From the NCBI RefSeq assembly GCF_011174775.1, contig NZ_JAANHS010000004.1, positions 186,001 to 250,000 on the forward strand: 64,000 bases of DNA. The letters run 5' to 3'. The number at the start of each line of letters is the position of its first letter. The first letter of the stretch is position 1. The translations under genes and the position numbers were made by a program. Below are positions 10,865 to 64,000 of the stretch, piece by piece. The stretch comes from Rhodobacter calidifons (GTDB taxonomy: Bacteria; Pseudomonadota; Alphaproteobacteria; Rhodobacterales; Rhodobacteraceae). The notes below the pieces were generated by a model. It was not told where the DNA came from. It saw only the letters and a program-made list of their open reading frames with translations, and did no database searches.

Positions 10865-10950
10865 CGGGGTCTCCTCTGGAAAGATGACCCCGATCAGGTT
10901 TCACCGATCGGCGACTGCCGCATGAAGCCGAGGCAACATGCCGGTGAAAC
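10865..10950 (-). promoter_or_regulatory. Two-hairpin 5' leader overlapping the ribosome-binding site of the phytase-like gene
   Basis: In the mRNA sense, an outer stem GTTTCACCG / CGGTGAAAC (10950-10942 with 10906-10898) is followed five bases later by stem CGGGGTC / GACCCCG (10892-10886 with 10871-10865). The 14-base loop of the second stem holds most of the Shine-Dalgarno AGAGGAG, and the ATG begins two bases after the stem. Such a layout could control translation. It matches no riboswitch class I know. Confidence 0.45.
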
Positions 10951-10975
10951 TTTTGCCATGCAGCGTGACGGCCCA

Positions 10976-11004
10976 TGCGGCCCCCGGGCAGGCCGAGGGC
11001 CGCA
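10976..11004 (-). terminator. Hairpin after gltB
   Basis: TGCGGCCC (10976-10983) pairs with GGGCCGCA (10997-11004), an 8-bp GC-rich stem with a 13-base loop, starting five bases after the gltB stop codon. No T-run follows in the gltB direction, so it may be a 3'-end stabiliser or an attenuating structure and not a classical terminator. Confidence 0.45.
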
Positions 11005-11009
11005 GGTCG

Positions 11010-14000
11010 TCACTCCGCCGGAACCTTCGCCACCTCGTCCGACAGCGGATAGGGCAGGCGTTCCACCATCTCTTTCGGGCAGACCTGAAGGAAGTTCTGC
11101 CGCTCGCGGTCCCAGTTCGACAGGATCCGCTCGGCGATGCGGCTGCCGGTTTCCTCACGGTGCCGGGCGATCAGGCCCTTGAGCTGCATCTCCCAATGCG
11201 GATGCCCGACCGCGCAGGTCAGGATCGACTCCAGGTTCATGAAGTCCTCGGCCACGCCCTCGGGATCGTAGACATAGGCCATGCCGCCGGTCATCCCCGC
11301 CCCGAAGTTCGCGCCGATCCGGCCCAGGATCACCGCCACCCCGCCGGTCATGTATTCGCAGCCGTTCGACCCGCAGCCTTCAACGACCACATGCGCGCCC
11401 GAGTTGCGCACCGCGAACCGCTCTCCGGCGCGACCCGAGGCGAACAGGAACCCGTCCGTCGCGCCATACAGCACCGTGTTGCCGATGATCGTGTTCTCCT
11501 CGGCCTTCAAGGGCGAAGACATCATCGGCCGCACGGTGATCGTGCCGCCGGACAGGCCCTTGCCGACATAGTCGTTGGCGTCGCCCTGCACTTCCAGCTT
11601 GAGCCCCCGCACCGCGAAGGCCCCCAGCGACTGCCCGCAGGACCCCGTCAGCTTCACCGTCAGATGGTCGGGCTGCAAGGCGTTCCGCATCCCGAACTTC
11701 TTCACGATATGGCTCGACGCCCGCGTGCCGATGGTGCGGTGCGTGTTGCGCACCGCATAGGACAGCTGCATCTTCTCGCCCTCCTCGAAGAAGCGCGCGC
11801 CGTCGCGGATGATCTCGGCATCCAGCGTGTCAGGCACCGCATTCCGCGGCTTCGTCCGGTCATAGGTGATCGACCGCGCGCCATCCACGGTGATGAGCAG
11901 CGGGTTCAGGTCCAGATCGTCCAGGTTCGCGGCCCCCCGGCTGACCTGCGTCAGCAGGTCTGCCCGCCCGATGATCTCGTCCAGCGACCGCGCGCCGATC
12001 GACGCAAGGATCTCCCGCACTTCCTGAGCGTAGAAGGTGATCAGGTTCACCACCTTGTCCGCCGTGCCGGTGAACTTGGCGCGCAGGCGTTCGTCCTGAG
12101 TGCAGACGCCCACCGGGCAGGTGTTCGACTGGCACTGCCGCACCATGATGCAGCCCATGGCGATCAGCGCGGCGGTGCCGATGCCGTATTCCTCGGCCCC
12201 CATCATCGCCGCCATCACGATGTCGCGCCCCGTGCGCAACCCGCCATCGGTGCGCAGCGTCACCCGCTCGCGCAGGTTGTTCATCGCCAGCACCTGATGC
12301 GCCTCGGTCAGGCCCATTTCCCAGGGCAGACCGGCATATTTGATGCTGGTCGCAGGCGAAGCCCCCGTCCCGCCGTTGTGGCCCGAGATCAGGATCACGT
12401 CCGCCTTGGCCTTCGCCACCCCCGCCGCGATGGTGCCCACGCCGCTGGACGACACCAGCTTGACGCAGACCTTGGCACGCGGGTTGATCTGCTTCAGGTC
12501 GTAGATCAGCTGCGCCAGGTCCTCGATCGAATAGATATCGTGGTGCGGCGGGGGCGAGATCAGCGTCACCCCCGGCGTCGAATGGCGCAGCCGCGCGATC
12601 AGCGCCGTGACCTTCATCCCCGGCAGCTGGCCGCCCTCGCCGGGCTTGGCGCCCTGAGCCACCTTGATCTCCAGCTCTTCGCAGGCGTTCAGGTATTCCG
12701 CCGTCACGCCGAACCGGCCACTGGCCACCTGCTTGATCTTGGCGGACGGGTTGTCCCCGTTCGGCTCCGGCGTGAAATGCGCCGGGTCCTCGCCGCCTTC
12801 GCCGCTGTCGGACTTCGCCCCGATCCGGTTCATCGCCACGTTCAGCGTCTTGTGCGCCTCGGGGCTCAGCGCCCCCAGCGACATCCCCGGCGTGACGAAC
12901 CGCTTGCGGATCGAGGTGATGCTCTCCACCTCCTCGATCGGCACCGGCTTGCCCAGGGGCTTGATGTCCAGAAGGTCGCGCAGATGGATCGGGGGATTGG
13001 CCCGCATCGCGGCCGAATATTGCTTCCAGACGTCATAGGACGCCCGGTCGCAGGCCGATTGCAGCATGTGCATCGTCTGCGCTTCCCAGGCGTGCTTCTC
13101 GCCCGTGCGCCGCGCCTTGTAGAAGCCGCCGATGGGCAGCACGTCCGCGCCCCCCAGCCAGCCCTTGCGGTGCACTTCCTCCAGCTTCTGCTCGATGCCC
13201 GTCAGCCCGATGCCGCTGATGCGCGACTGCATGCCAGGGAAATACTCGGCCACCATGGCGCGGGACAGTCCCACGGCCTCGAAGTTCAGACCGCCGCGAT
13301 AGCTGGAGATCACCGAGATCCCCATCTTCGACATGATCTTCAGCAGGCCTGCGTCGATGGCATCGCGATAGCGCCGCATCGCCTCGGTCAGCGGGCCGTC
13401 GAGAAGGCCGCGCTCGATCCGGTCGGCGATGCTGTCCTGCGCGAGGTAAGGGTTCACCGTGGTCGCCCCGCAGCCGATCAGCACGGCAAAGTAATGCGGG
13501 TCGATGCATTCCGCCGACCGCACGTTGACCGAACAGAAGGTCCGCAGCCCCTTGCGCGTCAGCCAGCTGTGCACGGCACTGGTGGCCAGGATCATCGGCA
13601 TCCCCACCTTCTCCGGCCCCTGATGCTCGTCCGTCAGCACCAGCTGCCCGGCCCCCGAGCGCACCGCATCCTCGGCCTCGGCCCGGATCCGCTCCAGCCC
13701 CTGCCGCAGGTCGTCCAGCCCCTCGCCCACCGGGAAGGTGCAGTCGATGAAGGCGACCTGATCGCCGAAGCGTTCGACCATCACCTCGAACTCGCGGTTG
13801 GCGATGAAGGGGCTTTCCAGCACCAGGATTTCCGTCTGGCTGGAGCTTTCGTCCAGCACGTTCTTCAGGTTTCCGAACCGGGTCTTCAGCGACATCACCC
13901 GGCCTTCGCGCAAGCTGTCGATGGGCGGGTTCGTCACCTGGCTGAAGTTCTGCCGGAAGTAATGCGACAGCGGGCGATAGACCGACGACAGCACGGCGGG

Positions 14001-15548
14001 CGGCGTGTCATCGCCCATGCTGGCGACCATCTCCTTCCCGTCCTCGGCCATCGGAGCCAGAACCTGCTCCAGCTCCTCGATGGTGAACCCCGCCGCGATC
14101 TGCCGCTTGCGCAGCTCCGTCCCGGTAAAGGTCTGCGTCTCGGGCACGTCGCGCAAGAGGCTGTTGAGGTCCACGACCTTCTCGATCCACTCGCCATAGG
14201 GCAGGGCGGCGGCCAGTTTGTCCTTGATCTCGGTGTCGTGGTAAAGCCTGCCCTCCACCATATCGACCGCGATCATCTGGCCCGGCCCCAGCGCGCCCTT
14301 CTCGCGCACGGTGGTTTCATCGACCGGCACCATGCCGGCCTCGGACCCCGCGATCAGCATCCCGTCGCCCGTCACCACATAGCGCATCGGGCGCAGACCG
14401 TTGCGGTCCAGGCCCCCGCAGACCCAGCGCCCATCGGTCATCGCCAAGGCGGCAGGGCCGTCCCACGGCTCCATCACGCTGTTGCAGTAGGAATACATGT
14501 CCGCCCAGGCCTTGGGCATGTTCACCGTCTGCTTCGACCAGGCCTCGGGCACCAGCATCGTCTTGGCCATCGGCGCATTGCGCCCCGACCGCACCAGCAC
14601 CTCGAACACCGCATCCAATGCACCCGAGTCACTCGTCCCGCCCGGAATGATCGGCTTGATGTCCTCTGCCGCCTCGCCGAAGTTGTTCGACGCCATGCGG
14701 ATCTCGTGGGACTTCATCCAGTTGACATTGCCCTTCAGCGTGTTGATCTCGCCGTTGTGCGCCAGCATGCGGAACGGCTGCGCCAGCCACCACTGCGGGA
14801 AGGTGTTGGTGCTGTAGCGCTGGTGGTAGATCGCAAACGCGCTTTCAAACCGCTCGTCCATCAGGTCGGGGTAGAAGGTCGCCACCTGCTCGGCCAGCAT
14901 CATCCCCTTGTAGATGATGCTGCGGCAGGACAGCGAACAGAGGTAAAGCCCCGCGATACCCGCCGCCGTCGCCGCCTTCTCGATCCGGCGGCGGATGATG
15001 TAAAGCTCGCGCTCGAACTGTTCCTGGTCGATGTCCTTCTCGCAGCGGATCAGGATCTGCTCGATCTCGGGCCGCGTCGCGTTGGCCTTGTCGCCCAGAA
15101 CCGAGACATCCACCGGCACATGCCGCCAGCCATAGATGTAATGCCCCATCCGCAGGACCTCGGCCTCCACGATGGTCCGGCAGCGTTCCTGAGCGCCAAA
15201 GTCCGTCCGCGGCAGGAACACCTGCCCCACGGCGATCAGCTTGTTCACATCCGGCTCATGCCCGGTCCGGCGCACCACGTCATAGAAGAACCTGACCGGG
15301 ATCTGCACATGGATCCCCGCCCCGTCGCCGGTCTTGCCATCCGCATCCACCGCACCCCGATGCCAGACCGCCTTCAGCGCGTTGATCCCGTTCTCCACCA
15401 CCTTGCGGCTGGGCTTGCCGCTGATGGAAACCACCAGCCCCACGCCGCAGGACGAATGCTCATCCTCGGCCTTGTAAAGCCCGTTCGCATCCAGCCAGGC
15501 GCGCTTTTCCTCTTCGGCCCGAACCCAGGCGGCATCGTATTTGGTCAT
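11010..15548 (-). CDS. gltB: Glutamate synthase (NADPH) large chain
   Basis: Makes two glutamates from glutamine and 2-oxoglutarate, with electrons from the small chain. The 1512-residue protein starts with a propeptide; HSSCGVGLV places the glutaminase nucleophile at Cys34, exposed after cleavage. Further on are the FMN-domain stretch SGHNGGTGASP and the 3Fe-4S motif CIMVRQCQSNTCPVGVC, then the C-terminal beta-helix domain with repeated glycines. AAAGGAG lies six bases before ATG 15548, inside the last codons of the preceding unknown gene. In transcription order the unit is gltD, unknown exported protein, gltB, an unusual interruption of the gltBD pair. Confidence 0.97.
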   Translation of the reverse strand: MTKYDAAWVRAEEEKRAWLDANGLYKAEDEHSSCGVGLVVSISGKPSRKVVENGINALKAVWHRGAVDADGKTGDGAGIHVQIPVRFFYDVVRRTGHEPDVNKLIAVGQVFLPRTDFGAQERCRTIVEAEVLRMGHYIYGWRHVPVDVSVLGDKANATRPEIEQILIRCEKDIDQEQFERELYIIRRRIEKAATAAGIAGLYLCSLSCRSIIYKGMMLAEQVATFYPDLMDERFESAFAIYHQRYSTNTFPQWWLAQPFRMLAHNGEINTLKGNVNWMKSHEIRMASNNFGEAAEDIKPIIPGGTSDSGALDAVFEVLVRSGRNAPMAKTMLVPEAWSKQTVNMPKAWADMYSYCNSVMEPWDGPAALAMTDGRWVCGGLDRNGLRPMRYVVTGDGMLIAGSEAGMVPVDETTVREKGALGPGQMIAVDMVEGRLYHDTEIKDKLAAALPYGEWIEKVVDLNSLLRDVPETQTFTGTELRKRQIAAGFTIEELEQVLAPMAEDGKEMVASMGDDTPPAVLSSVYRPLSHYFRQNFSQVTNPPIDSLREGRVMSLKTRFGNLKNVLDESSSQTEILVLESPFIANREFEVMVERFGDQVAFIDCTFPVGEGLDDLRQGLERIRAEAEDAVRSGAGQLVLTDEHQGPEKVGMPMILATSAVHSWLTRKGLRTFCSVNVRSAECIDPHYFAVLIGCGATTVNPYLAQDSIADRIERGLLDGPLTEAMRRYRDAIDAGLLKIMSKMGISVISSYRGGLNFEAVGLSRAMVAEYFPGMQSRISGIGLTGIEQKLEEVHRKGWLGGADVLPIGGFYKARRTGEKHAWEAQTMHMLQSACDRASYDVWKQYSAAMRANPPIHLRDLLDIKPLGKPVPIEEVESITSIRKRFVTPGMSLGALSPEAHKTLNVAMNRIGAKSDSGEGGEDPAHFTPEPNGDNPSAKIKQVASGRFGVTAEYLNACEELEIKVAQGAKPGEGGQLPGMKVTALIARLRHSTPGVTLISPPPHHDIYSIEDLAQLIYDLKQINPRAKVCVKLVSSSGVGTIAAGVAKAKADVILISGHNGGTGASPATSIKYAGLPWEMGLTEAHQVLAMNNLRERVTLRTDGGLRTGRDIVMAAMMGAEEYGIGTAALIAMGCIMVRQCQSNTCPVGVCTQDERLRAKFTGTADKVVNLITFYAQEVREILASIGARSLDEIIGRADLLTQVSRGAANLDDLDLNPLLITVDGARSITYDRTKPRNAVPDTLDAEIIRDGARFFEEGEKMQLSYAVRNTHRTIGTRASSHIVKKFGMRNALQPDHLTVKLTGSCGQSLGAFAVRGLKLEVQGDANDYVGKGLSGGTITVRPMMSSPLKAEENTIIGNTVLYGATDGFLFASGRAGERFAVRNSGAHVVVEGCGSNGCEYMTGGVAVILGRIGANFGAGMTGGMAYVYDPEGVAEDFMNLESILTCAVGHPHWEMQLKGLIARHREETGSRIAERILSNWDRERQNFLQVCPKEMVERLPYPLSDEVAKVPAE

Positions 15549-15551
15549 GGC

Positions 15552-16265
15552 TTACTCCTTTTCGGTCACGGGCAGGGTGGCTGGCAGGATGGTCGCGGGC
15601 GCGCGGGCCGTCAGCGCGTCGCAGTCGTATTTCGGCTGGCGGGCAAGGAACCCCTCTTCGCCCGGGAAGATGAACTCCACCGGAGATCCGTCGATCGGCC
15701 GCCAGATGCCGTCGCCCAGGTCGGTCTCGCCGGGCCCGGCGAAGAACAGACGCCAGTCCGAGTGCATGTATTCGTTCCCGCGCGACCGGCGGATCAGCTT
15801 CCCCGAGCGGTCGTATTCCGCGAACTCGACTTCGGTCTCGCTCAGGGTGATCCCGTCGATCACCACGCTGCGGCCGGTCAGCCGGTCATAGCCCTCGGCC
15901 CGGCTGCCCGATCCGTCGGCTTTGGACAGGCTGAAGCTCCAGGTGTCCATGCCTTCTCCGATCAGTTCCGTCATGCTGGCCGGGTCCGCCGGGTCCGGGT
16001 CCAGCACCTGCATGATCGGGTCATAGCTTTCGACCCACTCGGCCTCGTGGTTGATGCGCGAATAGAAGAACGGACCTTCCTGATCCATGTCCACCCGCCA
16101 CTGATCCCCCGGCGCGTCGGCGCTGCACCGGTAATGGTGCGACACCCGGCAGGCCTTGGACTGCACGGTCATGAAGGCCTCGCAGCCTTCGGGCACCGTC
16201 CAGCTGGCGGCCAGCGCAGGCGCGGCCGGGACGGTCAGGCAGGCAAGGATCGCAATGGTCCGCAT
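15552..16265 (-). CDS. Exported protein of unknown function between gltD and gltB
   Basis: The 237-residue protein has a clear signal peptide (MRTIAILACLTVPAAPALAA). The mature protein has four cysteines, in PEGCEAF, SKACRVS, HYRCSAD and KYDCDAL, which could form two disulfides in the periplasm. I recognise no domain. The start at 16265 is set by the signal peptide and AAAGGTGA upstream. It ends three bases before the gltB start codon and supplies the gltB ribosome-binding site, so the two are probably translated from one message. A link to glutamate metabolism is suggested by position only. Confidence 0.7.
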   Translation of the reverse strand: MRTIAILACLTVPAAPALAASWTVPEGCEAFMTVQSKACRVSHHYRCSADAPGDQWRVDMDQEGPFFYSRINHEAEWVESYDPIMQVLDPDPADPASMTELIGEGMDTWSFSLSKADGSGSRAEGYDRLTGRSVVIDGITLSETEVEFAEYDRSGKLIRRSRGNEYMHSDWRLFFAGPGETDLGDGIWRPIDGSPVEFIFPGEEGFLARQPKYDCDALTARAPATILPATLPVTEKE

Positions 16266-16326
16266 CGCCGGTTCACCTTTCGGATGGGTCATCCATCCTG
16301 ACGTTTCTTGACATGTCCTGTCCTGG

Positions 16327-26907: not shown

Positions 26908-26923
26908 TTAACCGGCAATTAAC
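26908..26923 (+). promoter_or_regulatory. Perfect CtrA box upstream of the PAS-domain gene
   Basis: TTAA-CCGGCAA-TTAAC matches the CtrA consensus TTAA-N7-TTAAC at every fixed base. It lies 54 bases before ATG 26977 in the 76-bp gap after regB. A further TTAA follows at 26943. Confidence 0.7.
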
Positions 26924-26976: not shown

Positions 26977-28548
26977 ATGGGCGATCTGGCGATGATCCTG
27001 GGCATGGTTCTTGCGGCCTTTCTGGTTGCCCTTTCCGCCCTCGTGCTGATGCAGGCCTGGCTTGACCGGCACCCGGCGCGCGTCGCCAGCATCTTCGACC
27101 TGGCCCCGTCGCAGGTTGCCTTCCTTTTTGACGGCGAGCGGCTGATCGACGCCTCGCCCGCCGCCCGGTCCCTGTTGCCGGAAGGCGAGGATACGCGAGC
27201 ATGGGGCAGGTTGATGGCGCGCTTTGGCCCGGATTTTCCCGGCCTGGCCGAGCGGCTGGCCAGCCTGCCGCGCAGTGGCCAGATCCGGATCGCCTCGCTG
27301 CCGACCACGGCCCCGCCGCTGGTCCTGAAGGCCGAGCTGCGCTCCGGCCTTCTGCATCTGGCGCTGGAGGCCGGCCAGACCGAAGCGTCGCCACATCAGC
27401 GGCCGGGCCAGAACGACGCGGCCACGGCGGCCGCGCTTCAGCAAGAGGTGCAGGCCCAGCGCGCAATCCTGTCGCGGGCGCCGGTTCTGATGTGGAAGGA
27501 GGCGGCCGACGGCGCGGTGATCTGGGCCAACCACGGTTACCTGATCCGCGCGGTCGAGCTGCTGCCGGACGGCGAGGATCTGTCCTGGCCCTTGCCGAAG
27601 CTGTTCGACACGGCAGCCGGCAGTTCGACCCGGTTGAAGTTGCAGATGCCCAGCGGCCCGGAATGGTTCGACCTGGTACGGCTGCCTGCTGGCGAGGAAC
27701 GGCTGTGCTATGCGATGGCGGCCGACAAGGCGGTGCAGGCCGAGACCGCCCTGCGCGAGTTCATGCAGACCCTGACCAAGACCTTCGCCGACCTGCCGAT
27801 CGGGCTGGCCATTTTCGACCGCTCACGCTGCCTTCAGATGTTCAACCCGGCCCTGACCGACCTGACAACGCTGCCGCCGGAAATGCTCATCGCCCGGCCC
27901 TCGCTGAACGCCTTCCTCGATGCGATGCGCGCCCGGTCGATGATCCCCGAGCCGCGCGACTATCGCAGCTGGCGCAAGCAGCTGGCGCGACTCGAGGAGG
28001 AGGCCAGCATGGGCATCTTCGAGGAAACCTGGAGCCTGCCGGGCGGCCAGACCTACCGCGTCATCGGCCGACCGCATCCGAACGGCGCGCTTGCCTTCAT
28101 GTTCGAGGACATCTCGACCGAGATGACGCAGACGCGCCGGTATCGGGCCGACCTGGAGCTGGGCCAGTCGGTGATCGACGCCGTGGAAGACGGGGTTGCG
28201 GTGTTCTCGCAGGGGGGGCAGCTGGTGATGTCCAACGCGGCCTATGCCCAGCTCTGGCAACACGATCCGCAGGTGCTTCTGTCCGAGGCCAGCATCACCA
28301 CGCTGTCCGACTGGTGGCGCGACCATTCCGCGCCGACGCTGCTGTGGGACGACGCCACCGATTTCGTGACCAGCGCCGGGGACCGGACGCCCTGGGAGGG
28401 CGATGTGCGCCTGCTGGACGGGCGGCTGATCTCGTGCCGTTTCCGGCCGCTGACCGGCGGCGCGACGCTGATCACCTTCCGCCACCAGGTCGCGGCGCCA
28501 TTGACCGCGGTTTCCGACAGCCGACTGCGCGAAGAGCTGATGGCCTGA
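26977..28548 (+). CDS. Membrane-anchored PAS-domain protein without kinase domain
   Basis: The 523-residue protein has one N-terminal membrane helix (about residues 5-26) and then PAS-like modules: one around 45-110, one around 160-250 (LMWKEAADGAVIWANHGYL), one around 265-380 (LPIGLAIFDRSRCLQMFNPA) and one around 390-500 (VEDGVAVFSQGGQLVMSN). No histidine kinase, GGDEF, EAL or HTH region is visible; it ends shortly after the last PAS. Start ATG 26977, with CAGGAG upstream at loose spacing. It may be a sensor or scaffold for a partner kinase. The CtrA box hints at cell-cycle/motility control. Confidence 0.75.
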   Translation: MGDLAMILGMVLAAFLVALSALVLMQAWLDRHPARVASIFDLAPSQVAFLFDGERLIDASPAARSLLPEGEDTRAWGRLMARFGPDFPGLAERLASLPRSGQIRIASLPTTAPPLVLKAELRSGLLHLALEAGQTEASPHQRPGQNDAATAAALQQEVQAQRAILSRAPVLMWKEAADGAVIWANHGYLIRAVELLPDGEDLSWPLPKLFDTAAGSSTRLKLQMPSGPEWFDLVRLPAGEERLCYAMAADKAVQAETALREFMQTLTKTFADLPIGLAIFDRSRCLQMFNPALTDLTTLPPEMLIARPSLNAFLDAMRARSMIPEPRDYRSWRKQLARLEEEASMGIFEETWSLPGGQTYRVIGRPHPNGALAFMFEDISTEMTQTRRYRADLELGQSVIDAVEDGVAVFSQGGQLVMSNAAYAQLWQHDPQVLLSEASITTLSDWWRDHSAPTLLWDDATDFVTSAGDRTPWEGDVRLLDGRLISCRFRPLTGGATLITFRHQVAAPLTAVSDSRLREELMA

Positions 28549-49650: not shown

Positions 49651-51297
49651 ATGACCGCAATTCAGCGCGAGAAGATGGACTATGACGTGGTGATCGTCGG
49701 CGCGGGGCCTGCGGGCCTGTCGGCGGCGATCCGGCTGAAACAGCTGGACCCGGAACGCTCGGTCGTCGTGCTGGAAAAGGGATCCGAGGTCGGCGCGCAT
49801 ATCCTGTCGGGCGCGGTGCTGGACCCCTCGGGCCTGGATGCCCTGCTGCCCGACTGGCGCAACATGGACGCGCCGATCAAGGTTCCGGTCAGGGAGGACA
49901 ACTTCTATCTCCTCGGCCCCGCTGGTCAGGTCCGCATCCCGAACTGGCCGATGCCGCCGCTGATGTCGAACCACGGCAATTACATCGTCTCGATGGCGAA
50001 CGTCTGCCGCTGGATGGCCGGCGTGGCCGAGGGGCTGGGCGTGGAGATCTTCCCCGGTATGGCCTGTTCGGAACTGGTGTTCGAGGATGACAAGGTCGTC
50101 GGCGTCGTCGCCGGCGAATTCGGCCGCGACCCCGAAACCCGCCAACCGGGGCCCTCCTACGAACCCGGAATGGAGCTGCGCGGCAAGTATGTCTTCCTCT
50201 CCGAAGGCGTCCGCGGCAGCCTCGCCAAGCAGGTGATCGAGAAATACGACCTGTCCAAAGGCCATTGCCCGCAGAAATTCGGCCTCGGCATGAAGGAAAT
50301 CTGGGAGATCGACCCCGCGAAGCACCGCGAGGGCACCGTCACCCACACGATGGGCTGGCCCCTGGGCAAGAACGCGGGCGGCGGGTCCTTCATCTATCAC
50401 CTTGAGAACAATCAGGTCTATGTCGGCTTCGTCGTCCACCTGAACTACGAAAACCCCCACCTCTACCCCTACATGGAGTTCCAGCGCTTCAAGCACCACC
50501 CGATGGTGGCGGACCTGCTCAAGGGCGGCAAACGCGTCGCCTACGGCGCCCGCGCGATCTCCGAGGGCGGCTGGCAGTCGATCCCGAAGATGGTCGCCCC
50601 CGGCGTGGCGCTTCTGGGCTGCTCGGCGGGGCTCGTGAACGTCCCCCGCATCAAGGGCAACCACAACGCCATGCTCTCGGGCAAGGCCGCGGCCGAGGCC
50701 GCGCACGCCGCCATCACCGCGGGCCGCGCGCAGGACGAATTGACCGCCTACGAGACCGAGGTCCGCACCGGCGCCATCGGGAAAGATCTGAAAAAGGTGC
50801 GCAACGTCAAACCCTTGTGGTCGCGCTTTGGCCTGACCGCCAGCCTGGTGGGCGGCGGCCTCGACATGTGGCTCAACACCATCGGCCTCACAGCCTTCGG
50901 CACGCTGCGCCATGGCAAGACCGACGCCGCCGCCACCGGCCTTGCCAAGGACCACAAGCCGATCGACTACCCCAAACCCGACGGAAAGCTCTCGTTCGAC
51001 CGGCTCACGAACGTCGCCTTCTCCTTCACCAACCATGACGAGAACCAGCCCGCCCACCTCGTCCTGAAGGACCCGTCCATCCCCATCGCCGTCAACCTGC
51101 CGAAATATGCCGAACCTGCCCAGCGCTACTGCCCGGCAGGGGTCTATGAGGTGCTGGGCGAGGGCGCCGACGCCACCTTCCGGATCAACTTCCAGAACTG
51201 CGTCCACTGCAAGACCTGCGACATCAAGGACCCCTCGCAGAACATCACCTGGACCACGCCCATGGGCGGCGGCGGGCCGAACTACCCCAACATGTGA
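49651..51297 (+). CDS. Electron transfer flavoprotein-ubiquinone oxidoreductase
   Basis: A 548-residue iron-sulfur flavoprotein that passes electrons from ETF (fatty and amino acid oxidation) to ubiquinone. FAD site [17 protein letters not shown] at residue ~12; membrane-surface ubiquinone region in the middle ([20 protein letters not shown]); C-terminal [4Fe-4S] cysteines YCPAGVYEV and [19 protein letters not shown] lies six bases before ATG 49651. Eukaryotic homologue: ETFDH. Confidence 0.96.
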
Positions 51298-51425
51298 CGC
51301 CGTCCGGGGCGCGTTTCACGAAAGGTTGTCCGGATCCTGCGCGCCCAATCGCAAGGTCGGGTCTCGCAACATTGCCTGGCCGCCGCGGCCGGGCTACCTT
51401 CAGCGCGACCGTCGAGGAGAGGCCC

Positions 51426-53153
51426 ATGCGTTCCGTGATTACCCGCACCTTGTGCGCCCTTGTGCTTGCGGCGGCTCTGGGCGCACCTCTTCAAGCCGAG
51501 GACGACATCAACTCCGGCGCCTATCTCGCGGCTCGGATCGCCGAACGCGAGAACGATTTCCGCGCCGCCTTTGGCTGGTATGCCCAGGCGATGGCTTCCG
51601 ATCCAGGCAATCCGGCGCTTCTTGACGGGGCCATCCTGGCCGGCATCGGCAGCGGAGACATTGTTCCGACCATCGAACTGGCGGCAATCCGGCGCGATCT
51701 CGGCAAGGACCGGGGCATCGACCGCAGCCAGCTTGCCGATCTGGTTCTCCTCGCCGACGAGGCACAGCGCGAGGACTATGCCGCGATCCAGGCAGAGGCC
51801 GCCGCGGGCCGCGATGTCGGGGACCTTGCCAACCAGCTAGTCCTCGCCTGGGCGAAAGTCGGCGACGGCAGGATGTCCGAGGCGCTCGAGGCCTTCGATA
51901 CGGTCGCAAAGAGGGAAGGTTACGAGGCGTTCGGCTATTACCACAAGGCCCTGGCCCTTGCCTCGGTCGGCGATTTCGAAGGCGCGGACGAGATCCTGTC
52001 CGGCAAGGCCGCCGGCCCGATCGTGGTGATGCGGCGCGGCGTCTTTGCCCATGTGCAGATCCTCAGTCAGCTGGAACGCAACCAGGATGCGCTGGCCCTG
52101 CTTGACCGCAGCTTCGGTCCCGGGCCGGATCCGCTGGTCGATCCCATCCGCCGCCGCCTTCAGGCCGGTGAGCCGCTTCCCTTCGATACGGTCCGAAATG
52201 CGCGCGACGGCATCGCCGAGGTGTTCTTCTCGATCTCCACCGCGCTGCAAGGCGGCGCCGATCCGGTCTACACGCTGCTTCACCTCCACGTCGCCGGATA
52301 TCTGCGGCCCGATCACAGCGATGCGCTTCTGATGACCGCCGACGTGCTGACGGACCTGCGTCAATACGATCTTGCCGCCGAAACCTATGCACGGTTCCGG
52401 CCCGAGGATCCGGCCTTCGTCACCGCGGAAATCGGCCGGGCAGGCGCGTTGCGGTCGCAGGGCAAGGCCGACGCGGCGATCGAGGCGCTTCGGACGCTGG
52501 CCCGGGCGCATGGCGACCTGGTCGGCGTGCAGTTCGCCTTGGGCGACATGCTGCGCGGACAGGAACGGTTTGCCGAGGCCGTGGCCGCCTATTCCTCGGC
52601 CATCGAACTTGCATCAGCGGCCGGCAAGCAGGACTGGGTGCTCTACTTCTACCGCGGCATCTGCCATGAGCAGTCGCAGAACTGGGCGCTCGCCGAGGCC
52701 GACTTCCGCCGCGCGCTGGAGCTGAACCCGACCCAGCCGCAGGTGCTGAACTACCTCGGCTACGGGCTGGTCGACCGGGGCGAGAAACTGGACGAGGCCC
52801 TTGGCATGATCGAGAAGGCCGTCGCGGGCGATCCCAAGCAGGGCTACATCATCGACAGCCTGGCCTGGGCGCTATTCAAGCTGGGCCGCTATGCCGAGGC
52901 GCTGGAACCGATGGAAAGGGCGTCGCTGCTTGAACCCGTGGATCCGATCGTCACCGACCACCTGGGCGATGTCTACTGGATGAACAACCGCAAGCTCGAG
53001 GCGCGGTTCCAGTGGCGCCGCGCCCTGTCGTTCAACCCGACCGAAAAGGACAAGGCGCGCATCCTACGCAAGCTCGAGGTCGGTCTGGACGCGGTGATGG
53101 CGGCCGAGGGCACGGCCCCGGCCCCGGTCAAGGCCGCCGAGAATGGCAATTGA
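51426..53153 (+). CDS. Exported tetratricopeptide-repeat protein
   Basis: A 575-residue protein with signal peptide (RTLCALVLAAALGAPLQAED), then TPR units across the whole length, clearest at LAEADFRRALELNPTQPQVL, LNYLGYGLVDRGEKLDEALG and LAWALFKLGRYAEALEPMER. Probably periplasmic or lipid-free outer-membrane-associated scaffold. GAGGAGAGG precedes ATG 51426. It overlaps ispE by eleven bases; the etfQO-TPR-ispE order is common in Rhodobacteraceae as far as I recall. Confidence 0.85.
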   Translation: MRSVITRTLCALVLAAALGAPLQAEDDINSGAYLAARIAERENDFRAAFGWYAQAMASDPGNPALLDGAILAGIGSGDIVPTIELAAIRRDLGKDRGIDRSQLADLVLLADEAQREDYAAIQAEAAAGRDVGDLANQLVLAWAKVGDGRMSEALEAFDTVAKREGYEAFGYYHKALALASVGDFEGADEILSGKAAGPIVVMRRGVFAHVQILSQLERNQDALALLDRSFGPGPDPLVDPIRRRLQAGEPLPFDTVRNARDGIAEVFFSISTALQGGADPVYTLLHLHVAGYLRPDHSDALLMTADVLTDLRQYDLAAETYARFRPEDPAFVTAEIGRAGALRSQGKADAAIEALRTLARAHGDLVGVQFALGDMLRGQERFAEAVAAYSSAIELASAAGKQDWVLYFYRGICHEQSQNWALAEADFRRALELNPTQPQVLNYLGYGLVDRGEKLDEALGMIEKAVAGDPKQGYIIDSLAWALFKLGRYAEALEPMERASLLEPVDPIVTDHLGDVYWMNNRKLEARFQWRRALSFNPTEKDKARILRKLEVGLDAVMAAEGTAPAPVKAAENGN

Positions 53154-57427: not shown

Positions 57428-57442
57428 TTAACAATCGGTTAG
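57428..57442. promoter_or_regulatory. CtrA-like site between fliF and fliL
   Basis: TTAA-CAATCGG-TTAG differs from TTAA-N7-TTAAC at the last two bases; read the other way it is CTAA-N7-TTAA. It lies 54 bases before fliF and 49 bases before fliL, suited to control both directions. Confidence 0.55.
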
Positions 57443-57490
57443 TGACCTTTGATCTATCTTCGTTCGCATCCCGAAGTGGAGGTGAAGATC

Positions 57491-57970
57491 ATGGCAACGG
57501 CAGAAGCCACACTGGAAGAGCCGCCGAAGAAGCGGTCGAAGAAGCCGCTTCTGATCGGCCTCGTACTGGCGCTCGTCCTTGGCGGTGGCGGCTTTTACGC
57601 CACGTTTTCAGGCCTGCTTCTGGGCAGCAGCGGCCACCCGCCGGCCAAGCACGGACCCGGCCCGTTAACCGGGATCGACTTCGTTCCGCTGCCGACGATC
57701 GTCATCTCGCTGGGCCCCGATTCGGGAAGCGATCACCTGCGTTTCACCGCCCAGCTCGAGGTGGTGGACCAAGCAGCGGCGGATGTCGCCAAGTTGTCAC
57801 CCCGGATCCTTGACGTGATCAACAGCTATCTGCGCGCGATCGATACCGCATCGATCGAAAATCCGCAGGCGATGGCACGGCTCAGGTCGCAGATGCTGCG
57901 CCGCATCCAGGTCGTCTCCGGCGAGGGTCGGGTGCGCGACCTTCTGATCACCGAATTCGTTCTGAACTGA
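57491..57970 (+). CDS. fliL: Flagellar basal body-associated protein FliL
   Basis: A 159-residue single-pass membrane protein: charged start (PPKKRSKK), helix LLIGLVLALVLGGGGFYATF, then a stomatin-like periplasmic domain (VPLPTIVISLG ... LLITEFVLN). Surrounds the stator and supports torque. GGAGG lies eight bases before ATG 57491; the in-frame ATT/ATG further up lacks a site. First gene of the rightward flagellar unit. Confidence 0.92.
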   Translation: MATAEATLEEPPKKRSKKPLLIGLVLALVLGGGGFYATFSGLLLGSSGHPPAKHGPGPLTGIDFVPLPTIVISLGPDSGSDHLRFTAQLEVVDQAAADVAKLSPRILDVINSYLRAIDTASIENPQAMARLRSQMLRRIQVVSGEGRVRDLLITEFVLN

Positions 57971-57981
57971 GGCCGGAACCC

Positions 57982-58380
57982 ATGGACCTGATCTCGGATA
58001 TCCTCCTTGTGGCCGGCTCCTTCGGGGCTGCCATCTACTGCTACGTCCTCTCGAACCGCCTGAAGCGCTTCACGACACTCGAATCCGGGATGGGCGGAGC
58101 AATTGCCGTCCTGTCCGCCGAGGTCGACGACATGACGGTCGCGCTCGAGAGGGCGCGCGGGGCGGCCAATGGCTCCGCCGAAAGCCTTGAGGCCCTGACG
58201 ACCCGCGGAGAGGCGGTCGCCCGCAAGCTGGAACTTCTGGTCGCCTCCCTGCACGATCTGCCCGACGGCGACCCTGCCGCCCAACCGGCCTCTGGCGCTG
58301 ACCCGTCGCCGGAGACAGAGCGCCGCCTGCGCGTGGTGCGCCGCCGCACGCCGCGCACGTCGCTTGAGGCCGCAGAATGA
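57982..58380 (+). CDS. Unknown small membrane protein in flagellar operon
   Basis: A 132-residue protein with an N-terminal membrane helix (MDLISDILLVAGSFGAAIYC) followed by a coiled-coil-like segment (AVLSAEVDDMTVALERARGA, through about residue 95) and a basic, Arg-rich C terminus. No family recognised. It is 11 bases after fliL and overlaps the motE-like gene by four bases (ATGA), so it is part of the operon and may be a motor or export accessory. Confidence 0.75.
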   Translation: MDLISDILLVAGSFGAAIYCYVLSNRLKRFTTLESGMGGAIAVLSAEVDDMTVALERARGAANGSAESLEALTTRGEAVARKLELLVASLHDLPDGDPAAQPASGADPSPETERRLRVVRRRTPRTSLEAAE

Positions 58381-58940
58381 GCCGCCGTCTGGGACGTGGC
58401 GCGTTGTTCGTCGTGGCGATGCTGTTTGCATCGTCTGGCGCCCTGCGCCTTGGATCGGGGATCGGTTCCGCCCTCGCAAAGTCGGAACCTTCAGGCGAAA
58501 TGGCTCCGATGGTTGGGGATGCCGCCCGGTGCGACATGCCCAGTGCACTTGCCCAGGCTCTTGCACTTCGCGAAGAACGCGTTGCCGCACAGGAGGCCGC
58601 ACTCAAGGATCGGCTGGCCGCACTTGCACTTGCCGATGCGGCAATCACCCGGCGCCTTGAAGAGCTTCGATCCGTCGAAGAGGAGCTGAAGGCGACGCTC
58701 GCCCTGGCTGATGGCGCGGCCGAGGAGGATATCCAGAAGCTCACGGCGGTATACCAGGCGATGAAGCCGAAGGATGCGGCCGCACTGTTCGAAACCATGT
58801 CCCCCGAATTCGCCGCCGGCTTCCTTGGCCGGATGCCGCCCGAGTCCGCGGCCGCCATCCTGTCGGGAATGTCAGCCGAAGCCGCCTATGGCGTAAGCGT
58901 CATCGTGGCCGGGCGCAATGCAAGCGTCCCCAAGAACTAG
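58377..58940 (+). CDS. motE: MotE-like flagellar/periplasmic chaperone
   Basis: A 187-residue protein with N-terminal membrane/signal segment (ALFVVAMLFASSGALRLGSG), a long coiled coil (about residues 65-115) and the MgtE-N-like tail typical of MotE: VYQAMKPKDAAALFETMSPE and FLGRMPPESAAAILSGMS. In Sinorhizobium meliloti MotE is a specific chaperone of periplasmic MotC. ATGA overlap with the preceding gene. The stop is followed by 68 bases with a TTAACC half-site before motA. Confidence 0.82.
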   Translation: MSRRLGRGALFVVAMLFASSGALRLGSGIGSALAKSEPSGEMAPMVGDAARCDMPSALAQALALREERVAAQEAALKDRLAALALADAAITRRLEELRSVEEELKATLALADGAAEEDIQKLTAVYQAMKPKDAAALFETMSPEFAAGFLGRMPPESAAAILSGMSAEAAYGVSVIVAGRNASVPKN

Positions 58941-59008: not shown

Positions 59009-59878
59009 ATGCTCGGCTTCGTCGGCATCGCCGTTATCCTCGTCATGGTGTTTGGCGGCTATGTGATGGCCGGCGGCAAGATGGGCATCATCCTCAAGGC
59101 CCTGCCATTCGAGATGATCATGATCGGCGGGGCCGCGATCGGGGCCTTCCTGATCTCGAATGACATGTCTGGCGTGAAGCAGACGATGAAGGACATCGGC
59201 AAGGTCTTCAAGGGCCCGAAATGGAAGCCGGAGGATTACCGCGACCTTCTGTGCCTCCTGTTCGAGCTGATCCGCCTGGCCCGTGCCAACCCGGTCGCGC
59301 TGGAGGAGCATATCGAGTCCCCGGAGACCTCGGCCATCATCGGAAAATACCCGCGCATCCAGCATGACCATGAGGCGATGGATCTCATCTGCGACACGCT
59401 GCGGGCGGCCTCGATGAACTACGACGATCCGCATCAGGTGGAAGAGGTTCTGGACAAGCGGATGGAAGCCACGCTGAGCCATGCAATGCACTCCAGCCAT
59501 GCCTTGCAGACCGTGGCAGATGGCTTGCCGGCTCTCGGCATCGTTGCGGCCGTGCTTGGCGTGATCAAGACCATGGGGGCGATCGATCAGCCTCCCGAGG
59601 TCTTGGGCAAGATGATCGGCGGTGCCCTGGTCGGGACCTTCCTCGGCGTCTTTCTGGCCTACGGCCTGATGGGTCCATTCGCGGCACGGGTGAAAACGGT
59701 GGTCGAGGAGGACATCCACTTCTATCAACTGATCCGCGAGGTCCTGATTGCGAACCTGCACCGGCATCCGGCCAATATCTGCATCGAGGTCGGACGCCAG
59801 AACACGCCGCACCATGTCCGGCCCGGCTTCAGCGATCTCGAGGAGGCCATGCGGAACCTGAAGCAGGAGGCCGCATGA
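59009..59878 (+). CDS. motA: Flagellar motor stator protein MotA
   Basis: A 289-residue proton-channel stator subunit with four membrane helices: LGFVGIAVILVMVFGGYVMA, LKALPFEMIMIGGAAIGAFL, VADGLPALGIVAAVLGVIKT and GALVGTFLGVFLAYGLMGPF, and the cytoplasmic loop with conserved Arg/Glu (LIRLARANPVALEEHIESP). ATG 59009. No motB follows; the next gene overlaps by four bases and encodes an unknown exported protein. motB must lie elsewhere. Confidence 0.95.
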   Translation: MLGFVGIAVILVMVFGGYVMAGGKMGIILKALPFEMIMIGGAAIGAFLISNDMSGVKQTMKDIGKVFKGPKWKPEDYRDLLCLLFELIRLARANPVALEEHIESPETSAIIGKYPRIQHDHEAMDLICDTLRAASMNYDDPHQVEEVLDKRMEATLSHAMHSSHALQTVADGLPALGIVAAVLGVIKTMGAIDQPPEVLGKMIGGALVGTFLGVFLAYGLMGPFAARVKTVVEEDIHFYQLIREVLIANLHRHPANICIEVGRQNTPHHVRPGFSDLEEAMRNLKQEAA

Positions 59879-62046
59879 TTCGCCCGGCGCTGATCCTGTT
59901 GAGCCTTGCCGCGCCTGCGGCGGGCGAAACGGCCCGGGTCTATTCCGGCGAACACGGAGACTTCACCCGCCTTGTGATCGAGCTTCCGAACGGGTCCGAC
60001 TGGCTGCTTGGGCGCACCGAGGATGGATATGCGTTCGCCACGAAGGATGCAGCGCAGCCGGACTACGATCTTGCGGGGGTCTGGCGGCGCATCTCGCGTG
60101 CGCGCGCTTCCGCGATCCTCAAGGATCCGGGCACCGGCGCACTTCGCCTGAGCCTGGGCTGCGACTGCCACATCACTCCGTTCGAATTTCGTCCCGGTGT
60201 CGTCGTTCTGGACATCCGGCCCGGAGCGGCCCCGAAAGGATCGGAGTTCGAGGTCGCGTTTGACGGCCAGAGAAAGGGCGCGGCTGAATCGGATCAACCG
60301 CAGCCGGCTGGTGGACCCGTGCAAGACTACACCTGGCTTGACACCCGCGCCACGACGACCGTCCCCAATCACACGCCGTCACCGTTGCCACTGCCGCTTG
60401 CGACGGGTGGGGTCTCACTGGAACCTCTCCGAAATGAACTTCTCGAGCAGCTGGCGCGCGGCGCGGCGGAGGGAATTGTCGATCTGGGGCTGCCGGCCAA
60501 GGCATCGGGAAAGACGCAGGCCGCGTCAGAGGATCTGCCGTGGTCCGGCATCCGCATCGGCGAGCAGCCTGGCCTCGCCACCAGGTTGCCCAACCCCTTT
60601 GAGAATGAACGAGAATCCGACCCTGCCTGCACGCCTGAGCCCCTTCTGGACATTGCCGCCTGGGGGGAGGCGCTTTCGCCGCTGGACATCCTGGCTTCGG
60701 CAAGATCGGGATTGCATGGCGAGTTCGATATTGCCGACCCGGATGCTGTCCTGCGCTCGGTCCGTCTGCATCTTCACCTTGGCTTCGGCGCAGAGGCCAT
60801 TCAGATGACAGAACTTGTCAGCGATGCGGCTGAAGCCGAGCCGTTGTCCATCTACAAGTCGATGGGTCGTATCATCGACGGCGAACCCGATCCTGCGACG
60901 CCCTTCGCGGGAATGCTGGACTGCGATGGACCGGCGGCCCTCTGGGCCGCTCTTGCCCGGGATCGGCTGCCACGAGGGCCCGGCGTAAACCGGGCGGCCA
61001 TCCTGCGCGCGTTCCAGTCCCTGCCGTCGCATTTGCGCAGTCATCTCGGAAGCGGACTTGCCGACCGCTTCCTTGCGATCGACGACGCCGACGCTGCCAG
61101 GATGATCCGCGATGCGATGTCTCGGGCACCGCAGGTCGAGGCAAAGACGATTGCCCTGCTGGACGCGTCGAACAGCCTGCACCGTGGCGACATCGAAGCT
61201 GCCAGACGCCACGCCGCCGAGGCCGTGGCTCTGGACGGAAATCAGGCGACCAGCCTTGTGACGCTTGTCGAGGCGCATTTCCAGGACCAGAAACCGCTGG
61301 CCGCAGAGATACCCGAGACATTGCGCGCGCTTCGGGGTGAGATCGGGGCCTCGGAACTGGGCGCGAAGGTCGACCGCGCCATTGTCCTGTCCCTGGCCCT
61401 GTCGGGTCAGATGGACGCGGCTTTCAGCTCTGGGGAAGCAGTGGGCAAGGTGCTTGCGGATCTTTGGAATGTTGCAGCGTCGCGCGCGGACGATGATTCG
61501 TTTCTGCGCCACGCGGTTCTGCCGACAGGCAACCAGCCCCCGGCACTTCCCCAGGATCTTGCCTTGAACATCGCTGTTCGCCTGCTGGATCTCGGGTTTC
61601 CTGATGCTGCCCTTGCCTGGATCGGGCCGGTGTCAACTAGGGACACCGCGAGCCGCAGGTTAGCCGCGGCGCGCGCGCAGCTCGGACGGGGTGACGCACG
61701 CGCCGCACTTCAGCTTCTGGAAGGATTGAACGGTGCTGAAAGCGAGTCGGTCCGTGCCGCCGCTCTTTTTCAGCTGGATGACCTTCCACAGGCAGCATCC
61801 GCATTGCGGGCAGCGCGAAGACCGGACGACGCGATCCGGGTCGAACTTTGGCAGGGCAAGGATCCCGCCACCGAGTCGGACGTGTCGTCCGTCTGGAAGG
61901 ACCCGGCCCTGTCACCTTCGGCCAGTGCGCCGGCTGGCGAGACCGGATTGCTTGGCCGCGCCGCAACAAGCGTGGACGCCAGCATGGCCGCGCGCGCTGC
62001 CGTCGAGACCTTGCTTCGCTCAGTGCCTCAGCCGTCGGGCAACTGA
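59875..62046 (+). CDS. Large exported protein of unknown function in flagellar operon (MotC candidate)
   Basis: The 723-residue protein starts with a short signal peptide (PALILLSLAAPAAGE). Residues ~20-120 form a beta-rich domain (RVYSGEHGDFTRLVIELPNG, an AMIN-like pattern). From ~250 to the end it is alpha-helical with TPR-like units (e.g. NSLHRGDIEAARRHAAEAVA, RLAAARAQLGRGDARAALQL). ATGA overlap with motA. Its place next to motA and a MotE-like chaperone, periplasmic export and helical repeats make it a candidate functional counterpart of rhizobial MotC; sequence alone does not prove this. Confidence 0.75.
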   Translation: MIRPALILLSLAAPAAGETARVYSGEHGDFTRLVIELPNGSDWLLGRTEDGYAFATKDAAQPDYDLAGVWRRISRARASAILKDPGTGALRLSLGCDCHITPFEFRPGVVVLDIRPGAAPKGSEFEVAFDGQRKGAAESDQPQPAGGPVQDYTWLDTRATTTVPNHTPSPLPLPLATGGVSLEPLRNELLEQLARGAAEGIVDLGLPAKASGKTQAASEDLPWSGIRIGEQPGLATRLPNPFENERESDPACTPEPLLDIAAWGEALSPLDILASARSGLHGEFDIADPDAVLRSVRLHLHLGFGAEAIQMTELVSDAAEAEPLSIYKSMGRIIDGEPDPATPFAGMLDCDGPAALWAALARDRLPRGPGVNRAAILRAFQSLPSHLRSHLGSGLADRFLAIDDADAARMIRDAMSRAPQVEAKTIALLDASNSLHRGDIEAARRHAAEAVALDGNQATSLVTLVEAHFQDQKPLAAEIPETLRALRGEIGASELGAKVDRAIVLSLALSGQMDAAFSSGEAVGKVLADLWNVAASRADDDSFLRHAVLPTGNQPPALPQDLALNIAVRLLDLGFPDAALAWIGPVSTRDTASRRLAAARAQLGRGDARAALQLLEGLNGAESESVRAAALFQLDDLPQAASALRAARRPDDAIRVELWQGKDPATESDVSSVWKDPALSPSASAPAGETGLLGRAATSVDASMAARAAVETLLRSVPQPSGN

Positions 62047-62067: not shown

Positions 62068-62136
62068 CATTGCCCGATAGGGTCTTTTCCAACTCGGGCA
62101 GGATGCCCGCACCGCCATGCGCGAAACAGGACGATG

Positions 62137-62808
62137 ATGCCTTTCCGTCGACAGTCTGTTGTCAAGTTGTTCCTGACGCTGACCGTTCCGGTACTGATCT
62201 CCGGTCCTGGGCGATCCATGGGCAATCCCGCCGAACTCTGTCGCGAGGCGGCGCACCAGGCGGCGAAGCGGACCGGGGTGCCCTATGCGGTTCTTCTGGC
62301 CGTCACGACGCTGGAAAGCGGACGCAACAATCAACCCTGGCCCTGGGCCGTGAACTTCGGCGGGAACGGACAGTGGTTCGACAGCCCGGGTGAGGCTGCG
62401 GCAAGCGTCCGTCAAGCACTGCTTGACGGCGCAACGAATATCGACCTCGGCTGTTTCCAGCTGAACTATCGCTGGCATGCGTCAGCCTTCGCTTCACTTG
62501 AAGACATGCTGGATCCGCTTCAGAACGCCCGTTACGCGGCAGAGTTCCTTGCGCAGCATTACGCACGAACCGGAGACTGGGCGCTGGCAGCGGCGGCCTA
62601 CCATTCGGCCACGCCAGAGCATGCCCGGGTCTATCAGGCAAGGTTCGAGGCGACCTATGCGCGCGTTTCACCGGACGATCCGCGGGTCGCCGTCACCGCA
62701 AAGGAACGAAAGAACAGCTTTCCGCTGCTGCTTGCAGGAACCGCGGGTCGGAACGGCTCGTTGTTTTCCTCGACCGACCGTCTCCGTCCATTGATCGGGG
62801 GCCCGTGA
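62137..62808 (+). CDS. Flagellar lytic transglycosylase (SltF-like)
   Basis: A 223-residue exported SLT-domain muramidase. Signal segment (LFLTLTVPVLISG), catalytic Glu in AVTTLESGRNN, glycan-binding NIDLGCFQLNYRWH and AAAAYHSATPEHARVY. R. sphaeroides SltF is a comparable Sec-exported enzyme that opens peptidoglycan for the rod. ATG 62137 is chosen (AGGA at five-base spacing); 62134 is also in frame. It ends one base before the flhA start. Confidence 0.85.
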   Translation: MPFRRQSVVKLFLTLTVPVLISGPGRSMGNPAELCREAAHQAAKRTGVPYAVLLAVTTLESGRNNQPWPWAVNFGGNGQWFDSPGEAAASVRQALLDGATNIDLGCFQLNYRWHASAFASLEDMLDPLQNARYAAEFLAQHYARTGDWALAAAAYHSATPEHARVYQARFEATYARVSPDDPRVAVTAKERKNSFPLLLAGTAGRNGSLFSSTDRLRPLIGGP

Positions 62809-62809
62809 G

Positions 62810-64000
62810 ATGGGCCTGGACTTCTCCCTCCAATCACTGCTCCGCCCTACGATCCTGCTGGCGATCGGACTGATGGCCGTCATTGTCATGATGATCCTTC
62901 CGGTGCCGTCATGGCTTCTGGACATCGGTCTGGCGCTTTCGTTTGCCCTGGCGATCCTGATGCTGACGGTAACCCTGTTCATCGACCGCCCGCTGGATTT
63001 CTCGGCCTTCCCGACCATCCTTCTCGCCTCCCTGCTGCTGCGGCTGGCGCTGAACGTCTCTTCCACCAAGCTCATCATCGGCCAGGGTCACACCGGAACC
63101 GATGCCGCCGGTCATGTGATCGAGGGCTTTGCCCAGTTCATCATGGGGGGCGATCTGATCCTTGGCCTGGTGATCTTCATCGTTCTTCTGATCGTGAACT
63201 TCATCGTCATCACCAAGGGCGCAGGCCGCATGGCCGAGGTGGGTGCCCGTTTCGCCCTGGACGGGATGCCGGGACGGCAGCTGGCCATCGATGCAGACAT
63301 GTCGGCCGGGGCGATCGATCACGCCGAAGCAAAGCAGCGCCGGGAACAGGAGCTTGCCGAGACGACCTTCTTCGGCTCGCTCGACGGTGCATCGAAATTC
63401 GTGAAGGGCGACGCGATTGCCGGCCTGTTGATCACCACGCTCAACATCATCATGGGGCTGGTCGTCGGAATCTTCATCCATGGTGTCGACGCGAGGACTG
63501 CGATCGAAACCTACACCATCCTGACCGTCGGAGATGGCCTGGTCAGCCAGATACCGGCCGTCATCATCTCGGTCGCGGCAGCCCTTCTGCTCGCGAAGGG
63601 CAGTCAGAAAGGGGCGGCAGATGTGTCGTTCTTCGCACAACTCGGCCGGTATCCCGGGGCTTTGGGCACGGTCGCGGCCTTGATGGCGCTTTTCGCGCTG
63701 GTCCCGGGCATGCCCTTTGTGCCCTTCATGCTGGCGGCCATCGCCCTTGGTGCCGTCGCCTATTTCCGATCCCAGCCGGAACCGAGATCAGAAGCGACCG
63801 ATTTGCAGACGCTCGAGGCACCCAGACCAAAATCGCTGGGCGATCTGCTGGACTTCGATGAAATCCACATCGAGTTCGCCCCGAATCTCGTGGCGATGGT
63901 TCTTGATCCGGCCACGGGGCTGGACAGCCGCATTGCCAACATGCGGAACCATGTGGCCACGTCCTTCGGCCTGATCCTTCCCGAAATCCGCCTGACCGAC
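62810..64000 (+). CDS. flhA: Flagellar export protein FlhA (cut by window end)
   Basis: The first 397 residues of the export-gate protein, open at the window end. Seven to eight membrane helices, the FHIPEP-region RPLDFSAFPTILLASLLL and RLALNVSSTKLIIGQG, the conserved cytoplasmic loop with GARFALDGMPGRQLAIDADM, and VGDGLVSQIPAVIISVAAAL. The cytoplasmic nonamer-ring domain starts near residue 335 and is truncated. ATG 62810 follows GTGAG with one base after the preceding stop. Confidence 0.96.
   Translation, partial: MGLDFSLQSLLRPTILLAIGLMAVIVMMILPVPSWLLDIGLALSFALAILMLTVTLFIDRPLDFSAFPTILLASLLLRLALNVSSTKLIIGQGHTGTDAAGHVIEGFAQFIMGGDLILGLVIFIVLLIVNFIVITKGAGRMAEVGARFALDGMPGRQLAIDADMSAGAIDHAEAKQRREQELAETTFFGSLDGASKFVKGDAIAGLLITTLNIIMGLVVGIFIHGVDARTAIETYTILTVGDGLVSQIPAVIISVAAALLLAKGSQKGAADVSFFAQLGRYPGALGTVAALMALFALVPGMPFVPFMLAAIALGAVAYFRSQPEPRSEATDLQTLEAPRPKSLGDLLDFDEIHIEFAPNLVAMVLDPATGLDSRIANMRNHVATSFGLILPEIRLTD

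Follow-up and report, generated by a model that had tools for sequence, protein, structure and literature searches.

MotK of Cereibacter sphaeroides (RSWS8N_12065, Q3IY86) was described by Velez-Gonzalez et al. (2024; PMC10954123) as a protein of 652 amino acids (aa) with a signal peptide, eight AmiC-AMIN-like strands and then TPR-like helices, and its gene stands in the order fliL2-pflI-motE-motA2-motK. According to the same work, motK and motE mutants form filaments but fail to swim. Both proteins are located in the periplasm and bind each other as well as MotB2, and the polar focus of MotK requires MotA2 and MotB2. Loss of MotK severely lowers the level of MotE, and MotK is detectable without MotE. 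In this work we analyzed a stretch of 64,000 nucleotides of Rhodobacter calidifons (contig NZ_JAANHS010000004.1, positions 186,001 to 250,000), hereafter the window. Its open reading frame (ORF) 59875..62046 is very probably the motK gene of this bacterium, and its product a periplasmic stator scaffold that acts at the MotE ring and MotB and is needed for rotation. A preliminary description, made from the letters alone, had presented the protein as unknown; it is better regarded as the MotK ortholog and, by position, as the counterpart of a motility protein of Phaeobacter inhibens, CP4.

The ORF has 723 codons and an ATG start, and lies in the gene order fliL-pflI-motE-motA-motK-slt-flhA, with all genes on the forward strand. 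The names of the neighbors were assigned from Pfam/NCBIfam matches:

57449..57970, + strand, fliL (FliL, E 2.8e-15)
57982..58380, + strand, pflI-like gene, a weak assignment (DUF6468, E 3.7e-4, under the curated cut-off)
58377..58940, + strand, motE of the E-ring type with an MgtE_N domain (E 1.6e-6)
59009..59878, + strand, motA (TIGR03818 MotA1, 361.5 bits; cut-off 303.8)
59875..62046, + strand, probable motK ortholog, 723 aa (from the ORF, its relatives, gene order and model)
62134..62808, + strand, lytic transglycosylase gene at the sltF position (SLT, E 4e-9; gene order as in P. inhibens)
62810..64000, + strand, flhA, truncated by the end of the window (FHIPEP, E 8.8e-146)

The first five genes share the order published for C. 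sphaeroides. The tight run of motE, motA and the third gene, with an overlap of four bases between the motA stop and the motK start, had already been seen in the preliminary description, and the coordinates agree with it. The same holds for the lack of motB in the run, since the single MotB_plug match of the genome is on another contig (C22), where it heads a string of FlgE/F/G-type, FlgK, Flagellin_C and FlgI genes (hook, P-ring). Against NCBIfam the product of the window motK was unmatched, and in Pfam no match was better than E 0.15. The putative signal peptide of the preliminary description rests on a hydrophobic N-terminus, a feature recognized by eye in 30 starts of this protein and its relatives. 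In addition, the window MotE has Cys52 near the position of the disulfide cysteine of the published MotE, and a cysteine within the first 80 residues was present in 68 of the 78 MotE relatives read.

The comparison with the published protein was made through a genome of our set, G094, in which the protein at the motK place (locus L010) is 652 aa long, the published length of MotK. Its MotE, read without the first residues, would have Cys49 at a length of 185 aa, matching the published mature Cys20 after 29 residues. The published proline-rich stretches 111-127 and 554-570 hold three and zero prolines in 17 residues on the G094 protein in precursor numbering, and seven and eight if the numbering is that of the mature protein (24 residues removed). 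From the length, Cys49 and the proline-rich stretches under mature numbering, we infer that G094 is C. sphaeroides. The window MotK matches its relative in G094 at E 2.1e-72 in a single-sequence search, with 229 of 641 aligned residues identical (36%). Both proteins have in common the gene order, a signal-like N-terminus, an AMIN-like domain, a TPR-like body and motE in the run, but differ in length (652 against 723 aa) and share that 36% identity, as measured through G094. In Cereibacter ovatus (L104) the count is 231 of 664, and the nearest named relative among the best 80 of 338 is that of Tabrizicola flagellatus (64%). The C. ovatus locus (L104:1-5094) carries motA-motK-slt-flhA, with no recognizable fliL, pflI or motE within 5 kb upstream.

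Within the order, a relative of the window MotK was found in 93 of 121 genomes (single-sequence search, E <= 1e-3), all of them among the 106 whose MotA scores above the NCBIfam cut-off. When the remaining 13 MotA-positive genomes were searched with the profile, G053 and G110 each gave a match just downstream of motA, both partial, so that the total is 95 of 106. Scanning the genome contigs with the single sequence detected no MotK relative, and with the alignment, 338. The best 80 of these are the named loci used for the neighbor counts, some of them cut by contig ends: upstream of motK they have motA in 80, motE in 79, and fliL and pflI in 78 each, while flhA is present in 60 and slt in 58. 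The distance between motA and motK (from BLAST ends) is at most 250 bases in 79 of the 80 loci and 363 in L088. Because 93 of 121 genomes hold a relative and motA lies upstream in 80 of 80 loci, the position of motK after motA is not due to chance. The overlap of the two genes is four bases in 25 of 30 loci, one base in three and zero in two; it was scored from the start codon nearest the overlap, which makes the tally lean to four.

An AlphaFold2 model of the window MotK, built with a 29-row alignment, reached a mean pLDDT of 80.6 and a pTM of 0.57 and predicts the following layout:

59929..60222, + strand, predicted AMIN-like beta-sandwich, residues 19-116, with the near-invariant C96 and C98
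60223..60651, + strand, predicted linker, mostly disordered, residues 117-259, with a helix at 183-198
60652..61854, + strand, predicted TPR-like helical-repeat body, residues 260-660, with the invariant C350 inside and C252 just before it
61948..62022, + strand, predicted C-terminal helix, residues 692-716

The beta-rich start and helical-repeat body proposed in the preliminary description therefore reappear in the model as predicted strands and helices. Across the 29 aligned homologs, C252, C350, W263 and R32 are invariant together with 15 further positions, and C96/C98 are nearly invariant; the conserved cysteines suggest disulfides, as predicted from the alignment. When the whole model was compared with the PDB by Foldseek, the first of 1394 matches was chain K of 9hmf, a motor scaffold of Campylobacter jejuni (E 1.7e-5). 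We assume that this chain, which has 773 residues, is PflA, since its length would correspond to PflA from residue 16 onward, taking 788 residues for PflA; the match row names no chain. Chain L of the same entry ranked 42nd, and the other matches among the best 50 of 1394 were mostly TPR, PPR and similar solenoids. By sequence, a PDB search with the window MotK gave four matches, all with E 0.052 or worse, and a search with the alignment gave weak coatomer and TPR matches (best 0.0013). The AMIN slice alone (pLDDT 96) matched first the B2 domain of PilQ (4aqz, E 1.9e-3), which we take to be of the AMIN kind, then PilQ 4av2, and AmiC 4bin in 23rd place. The model thus predicts both a TPR-like helical body and an N-terminal AMIN fold, the latter weak by sequence. 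We also considered that the protein could be an amidase or a secretin and rejected it, as the fold match is limited to the N-terminal part and the remainder is TPR-like. The presence of the AMIN fold in AmiC and PilQ too would suit a periplasmic TPR protein that maintains the envelope or peptidoglycan and has only the operon in common with its neighbors; such a role is very improbable, given that MotK co-occurs with MotA and is nearly absent without it, and that its position after motA is fixed.

The functional assignment is brought by mutants of other species. Besides those of C. sphaeroides, deletion of fssB (CC_2058) of Caulobacter crescentus gives a paralysed flagellum, as does deletion of motB (PMC7885107). 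FssB, a proposed distant MotK homolog with a Sec signal, TPR and a paralysed mutant, is likened here by description; an AMIN-like start has been reported for it (PMC10954123). From these findings in C. sphaeroides and C. crescentus, we consider the window MotK a stator spoke or recruiter between the MotE ring and MotB. In P. inhibens, a screen found four motility-essential conserved proteins, CP1-4 (PMC12363192). CP4 (PGA1_c35690) is encoded between motA and sltF-flhA, like the window MotK, and its insertion mutants are immotile; CP2 and CP3 lie between fliF and motA. Judged by gene position only, CP4 is MotK and CP3 is MotE; that paper uses neither name.

Several observations weigh against this reading. 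Among the 106 MotA-positive genomes of the order, 11 lack MotK even by profile; these exceptions may have other flagellar types. Conversely, the single-sequence search found MotK in none of the 15 genomes lacking MotA above the cut-off, but one of them, G010, gave a weak profile match at E 7.9e-5, which spans 87 positions within the TPR part and lies in an ORF of 492 aa. Since the matches in this group amount to 0 of 15 by single sequence and 1 of 15, weak and partial, by profile, MotK relatives do not occur mostly in non-flagellated genomes, a distribution that the preliminary description had named as telling against its proposal. With respect to the fold, the TM-scores to chain K of 9hmf are low (0.16 and 0.15), the matches of the AMIN slice all fail a threshold of E 0.001, with small heat-shock folds ranked between PilQ and AmiC. 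The Pfam models AMIN-like and AMIN match seven and one of the 29 members, respectively, with a best E of about 1e-3, and the window MotK itself is unmatched. Finally, the export of flagellar proteins is lowered in the CP4 mutant of P. inhibens, and the CP2 and CP3 mutants showed no flagella (PMC12363192). These findings hint at a role in assembly there. The reduced exoproteome, together with the lytic transglycosylase gene and flhA after the window motK, speaks for an assembly factor of the export, rod or hook stage instead of a stator scaffold. We regard this as improbable, as the CP4 mutant still exports FliC, FlgK and FlgE (PMC12363192) and the C. sphaeroides motK and C. crescentus fssB mutants keep filaments that do not rotate (PMC10954123, PMC7885107).

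Another aspect to consider is the relation with MotC of Sinorhizobium meliloti which, like MotK, is a periplasmic TPR partner of MotE, a likeness drawn by description only. A 2026 review links MotC and MotK as homologs on structural grounds (PMC13023049). The same source reports that MotC has no AMIN domain and that its level depends on MotE; in contrast, the model of the window MotK carries a beta-sandwich. The preliminary description had proposed the protein as a MotC counterpart and client of MotE. What has been published for MotK does agree with a periplasmic protein that partners MotE at the stator in flagella of the Rhodobacter type, but the direction of the dependence was the reverse of that proposed: in C. 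sphaeroides, MotE depends on MotK (PMC10954123). That the window protein is the orthologous counterpart of rhizobial MotC, with MotE as a chaperone of MotK, is unlikely to us, in view of the missing AMIN domain and the opposite stability dependence. On the other side are the grouping by fold and the shared partner, as well as a MotK-like protein of 584 aa from another family (L221:16947-18701), which shows no match to the AMIN part and whose gene overlaps a motA-like ORF (recognized by eye) by four bases. Relatives of this type were present in 11 of 60 genomes of the order of L221, and the proteins of L221 and L224-L234 are 568-596 aa long without a match to the AMIN part. The alignment of the L221 type against the MotK profile gave P 97.1, compared with 0.2 when the columns were shuffled, and cysteines stand opposite both invariant cysteines; the window MotK and the single L221 protein, compared by BLAST, gave no significant match (E 0.13). 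No motC was recognized by eye among the ORFs around MotB (16 stretches) or after MotB (30 loci), which is not proof of its absence. In one genome (G158), flgA-, flgG- and flgH-like ORFs surround the motE match, as in rhizobia, and a FliL-like ORF follows motB (names by eye); in the order of G158, motB was found in one of ten genomes.

A further described system is PflA of C. jejuni, which has a beta-sandwich, an unstructured linker and a superhelix of 16 TPRs, forms the spokes of the proximal disk, and binds PflB through its beta-sandwich and linker (PMC12222027). The model of the window MotK has the same succession of beta-sandwich, linker and TPR superhelix, PflA being compared by description; chain K of 9hmf is the top-ranked fold match, but with a weak fold score. 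Homologs of PflA in Alphaproteobacteria were proposed on structure in a 2025 preprint (PMC11870540), and MotK, MotC and CC_2058 have been grouped with PflA on the same grounds (PMC11870540; PMC13023049). If the stator-scaffold reading is right, the product of motK would be exported to the periplasm, where the TPR superhelix would form a spoke from the MotE ring (the E-ring, around the MS-ring) to the periplasmic part of MotB, and the AMIN domain, on its flexible linker, would anchor the outer end, most likely to peptidoglycan, an attachment that we find plausible. MotA/MotB would thereby be kept at the rotor and the engaged, open stator favored; without MotK, the flagellum would be built and would not rotate. 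We infer from the related systems that the properties of C. sphaeroides MotK carry over to the window genome, and likewise the spoke geometry and the peptidoglycan contact.

Relatives were also searched for in the class. The MotK profile matches 80 of 240 class genomes, 78 of them outside the family of the window (the sample holds three genomes of this family, with two of the 80 matches). Many of the 80 matches are confined to the N-terminal AMIN part, and some of these lie in probable amidase ORFs of about 400 aa. From the 25 best matches outside the family, 20 loci were fetched (G246, G212, G135, G178 and G324 were left out), and in 19 of them motE and/or fliL are near the MotK-like gene (motE in 18, fliL in 17; tblastn, E 1e-2). 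Of the 25 best genomes, 23 carry motE nearby on the contig of the MotK match, G135 through its second-best match; the exceptions are G234 and G246. The large MotK-like ORFs measured are of 978-1354 aa. In 22 of 23 distant proteins the real sequence outscored all shuffled copies (the worst E was 8e-8 among the real sequences and the best 1.3 among the shuffled ones), while L222 and a control, the repeat-rich window ORF 51294-53153, were not reported by the profile. It should be noted that these scores are partly by construction, because most of the class-level proteins were picked with the same profile (the exceptions are L221, L222, L213 and L214). The AMIN part is matched twice in nine of the 19 class-level proteins examined; in L150, L157, L158 and L162 one of the two matches covers only about 45-60 positions, signal peptide included. 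A plasmid search with the window MotK found one match, in Paroceanicella profunda (26% covered), and with a class-level MotK-like protein, six distant ones. On plasmid AZO_p5 of Azospirillum lipoferum, a hypothetical protein of 831 aa, matched over profile positions 7-642, is encoded directly before motA-motB. MotK relatives that carry no, one or two AMIN modules and are encoded near motE, fliL or motA elsewhere in Alphaproteobacteria are possibly a new observation, made by profile. In P. inhibens, CP1-4 were described as restricted to the fla1-type clusters of Rhodobacterales (PMC12363192); the class-level profile matches argue against such a restriction for CP4.

In 12 of the 20 class loci, two tandem MotB-like genes precede the MotK-like gene, and none was found in the other eight. 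The loci are as follows:

L147, L148, L150, L152, L156, L157, L158, L160, L161, L162, L165 and L166, MotB-like pair upstream of the big ORF

The models used to detect the MotB-like genes came from seven of these 12 loci, and in the seven pairs scanned both members match MotB_plug, the second also OmpA; the first is under the curated cut-off in four. No tblastn match to motA was obtained in the 12 loci. Upstream, L150 has a CheZ match and L165 a response regulator. A limited literature check found no published report of such a pair beside a MotK-like gene, so this arrangement, as judged from gene content, is possibly new.

As regards regulation, a CtrA-like box is present in the gap of 74 bases between fliF and fliL:

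57428..57442, + strand, putative CtrA box TTAACAATCGGTTAG, with 7 of 8 consensus bases

We take TTAA-N7-TTAA as the CtrA consensus. The window has two sites with at most one mismatch, one of them the box before fliL, with 0.58 expected, and at least two such sites occurred in 14 of 100 shuffles, for which reason the count alone says little. The candidate box is in line with the CtrA site published upstream of fliL2 in C. sphaeroides (PMC10954123). Elsewhere in the window, a perfect TTAA-N7-TTAA site occupies 26908-26922, flanked by an ORF for a histidine kinase, which ends at 26900, and one with a PAS domain, which starts at 26977. An ORF of 1787 aa (10938-16301), with no Pfam match at E 1e-3, is overlapped by a long ORF on the opposite strand.

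These results give a name and a role tested in C. sphaeroides to a gene without a significant Pfam/NCBIfam match, and tie CP4 of Phaeobacter to MotK through gene order. The profile evidence places MotK relatives beside motE, fliL or motA far beyond Rhodobacterales. Tentatively, as an idea that we would not yet favor over its negation, MotK could be the Rhodobacterales form of a class-wide stator spoke of the PflA type, with the same MotE partner and a modular anchor of none, one or two AMIN domains, depending on the lineage; the number of these modules and, in many lineages, the upstream MotB-like pair would set the distance of the stator from the rotor and how firmly it is held. If true, flagella could reach a different torque by this means. 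Through the link by sequence, the varying number of AMIN modules and the MotB-like pairs, the E-ring/spoke model can be put to the test in many further species.

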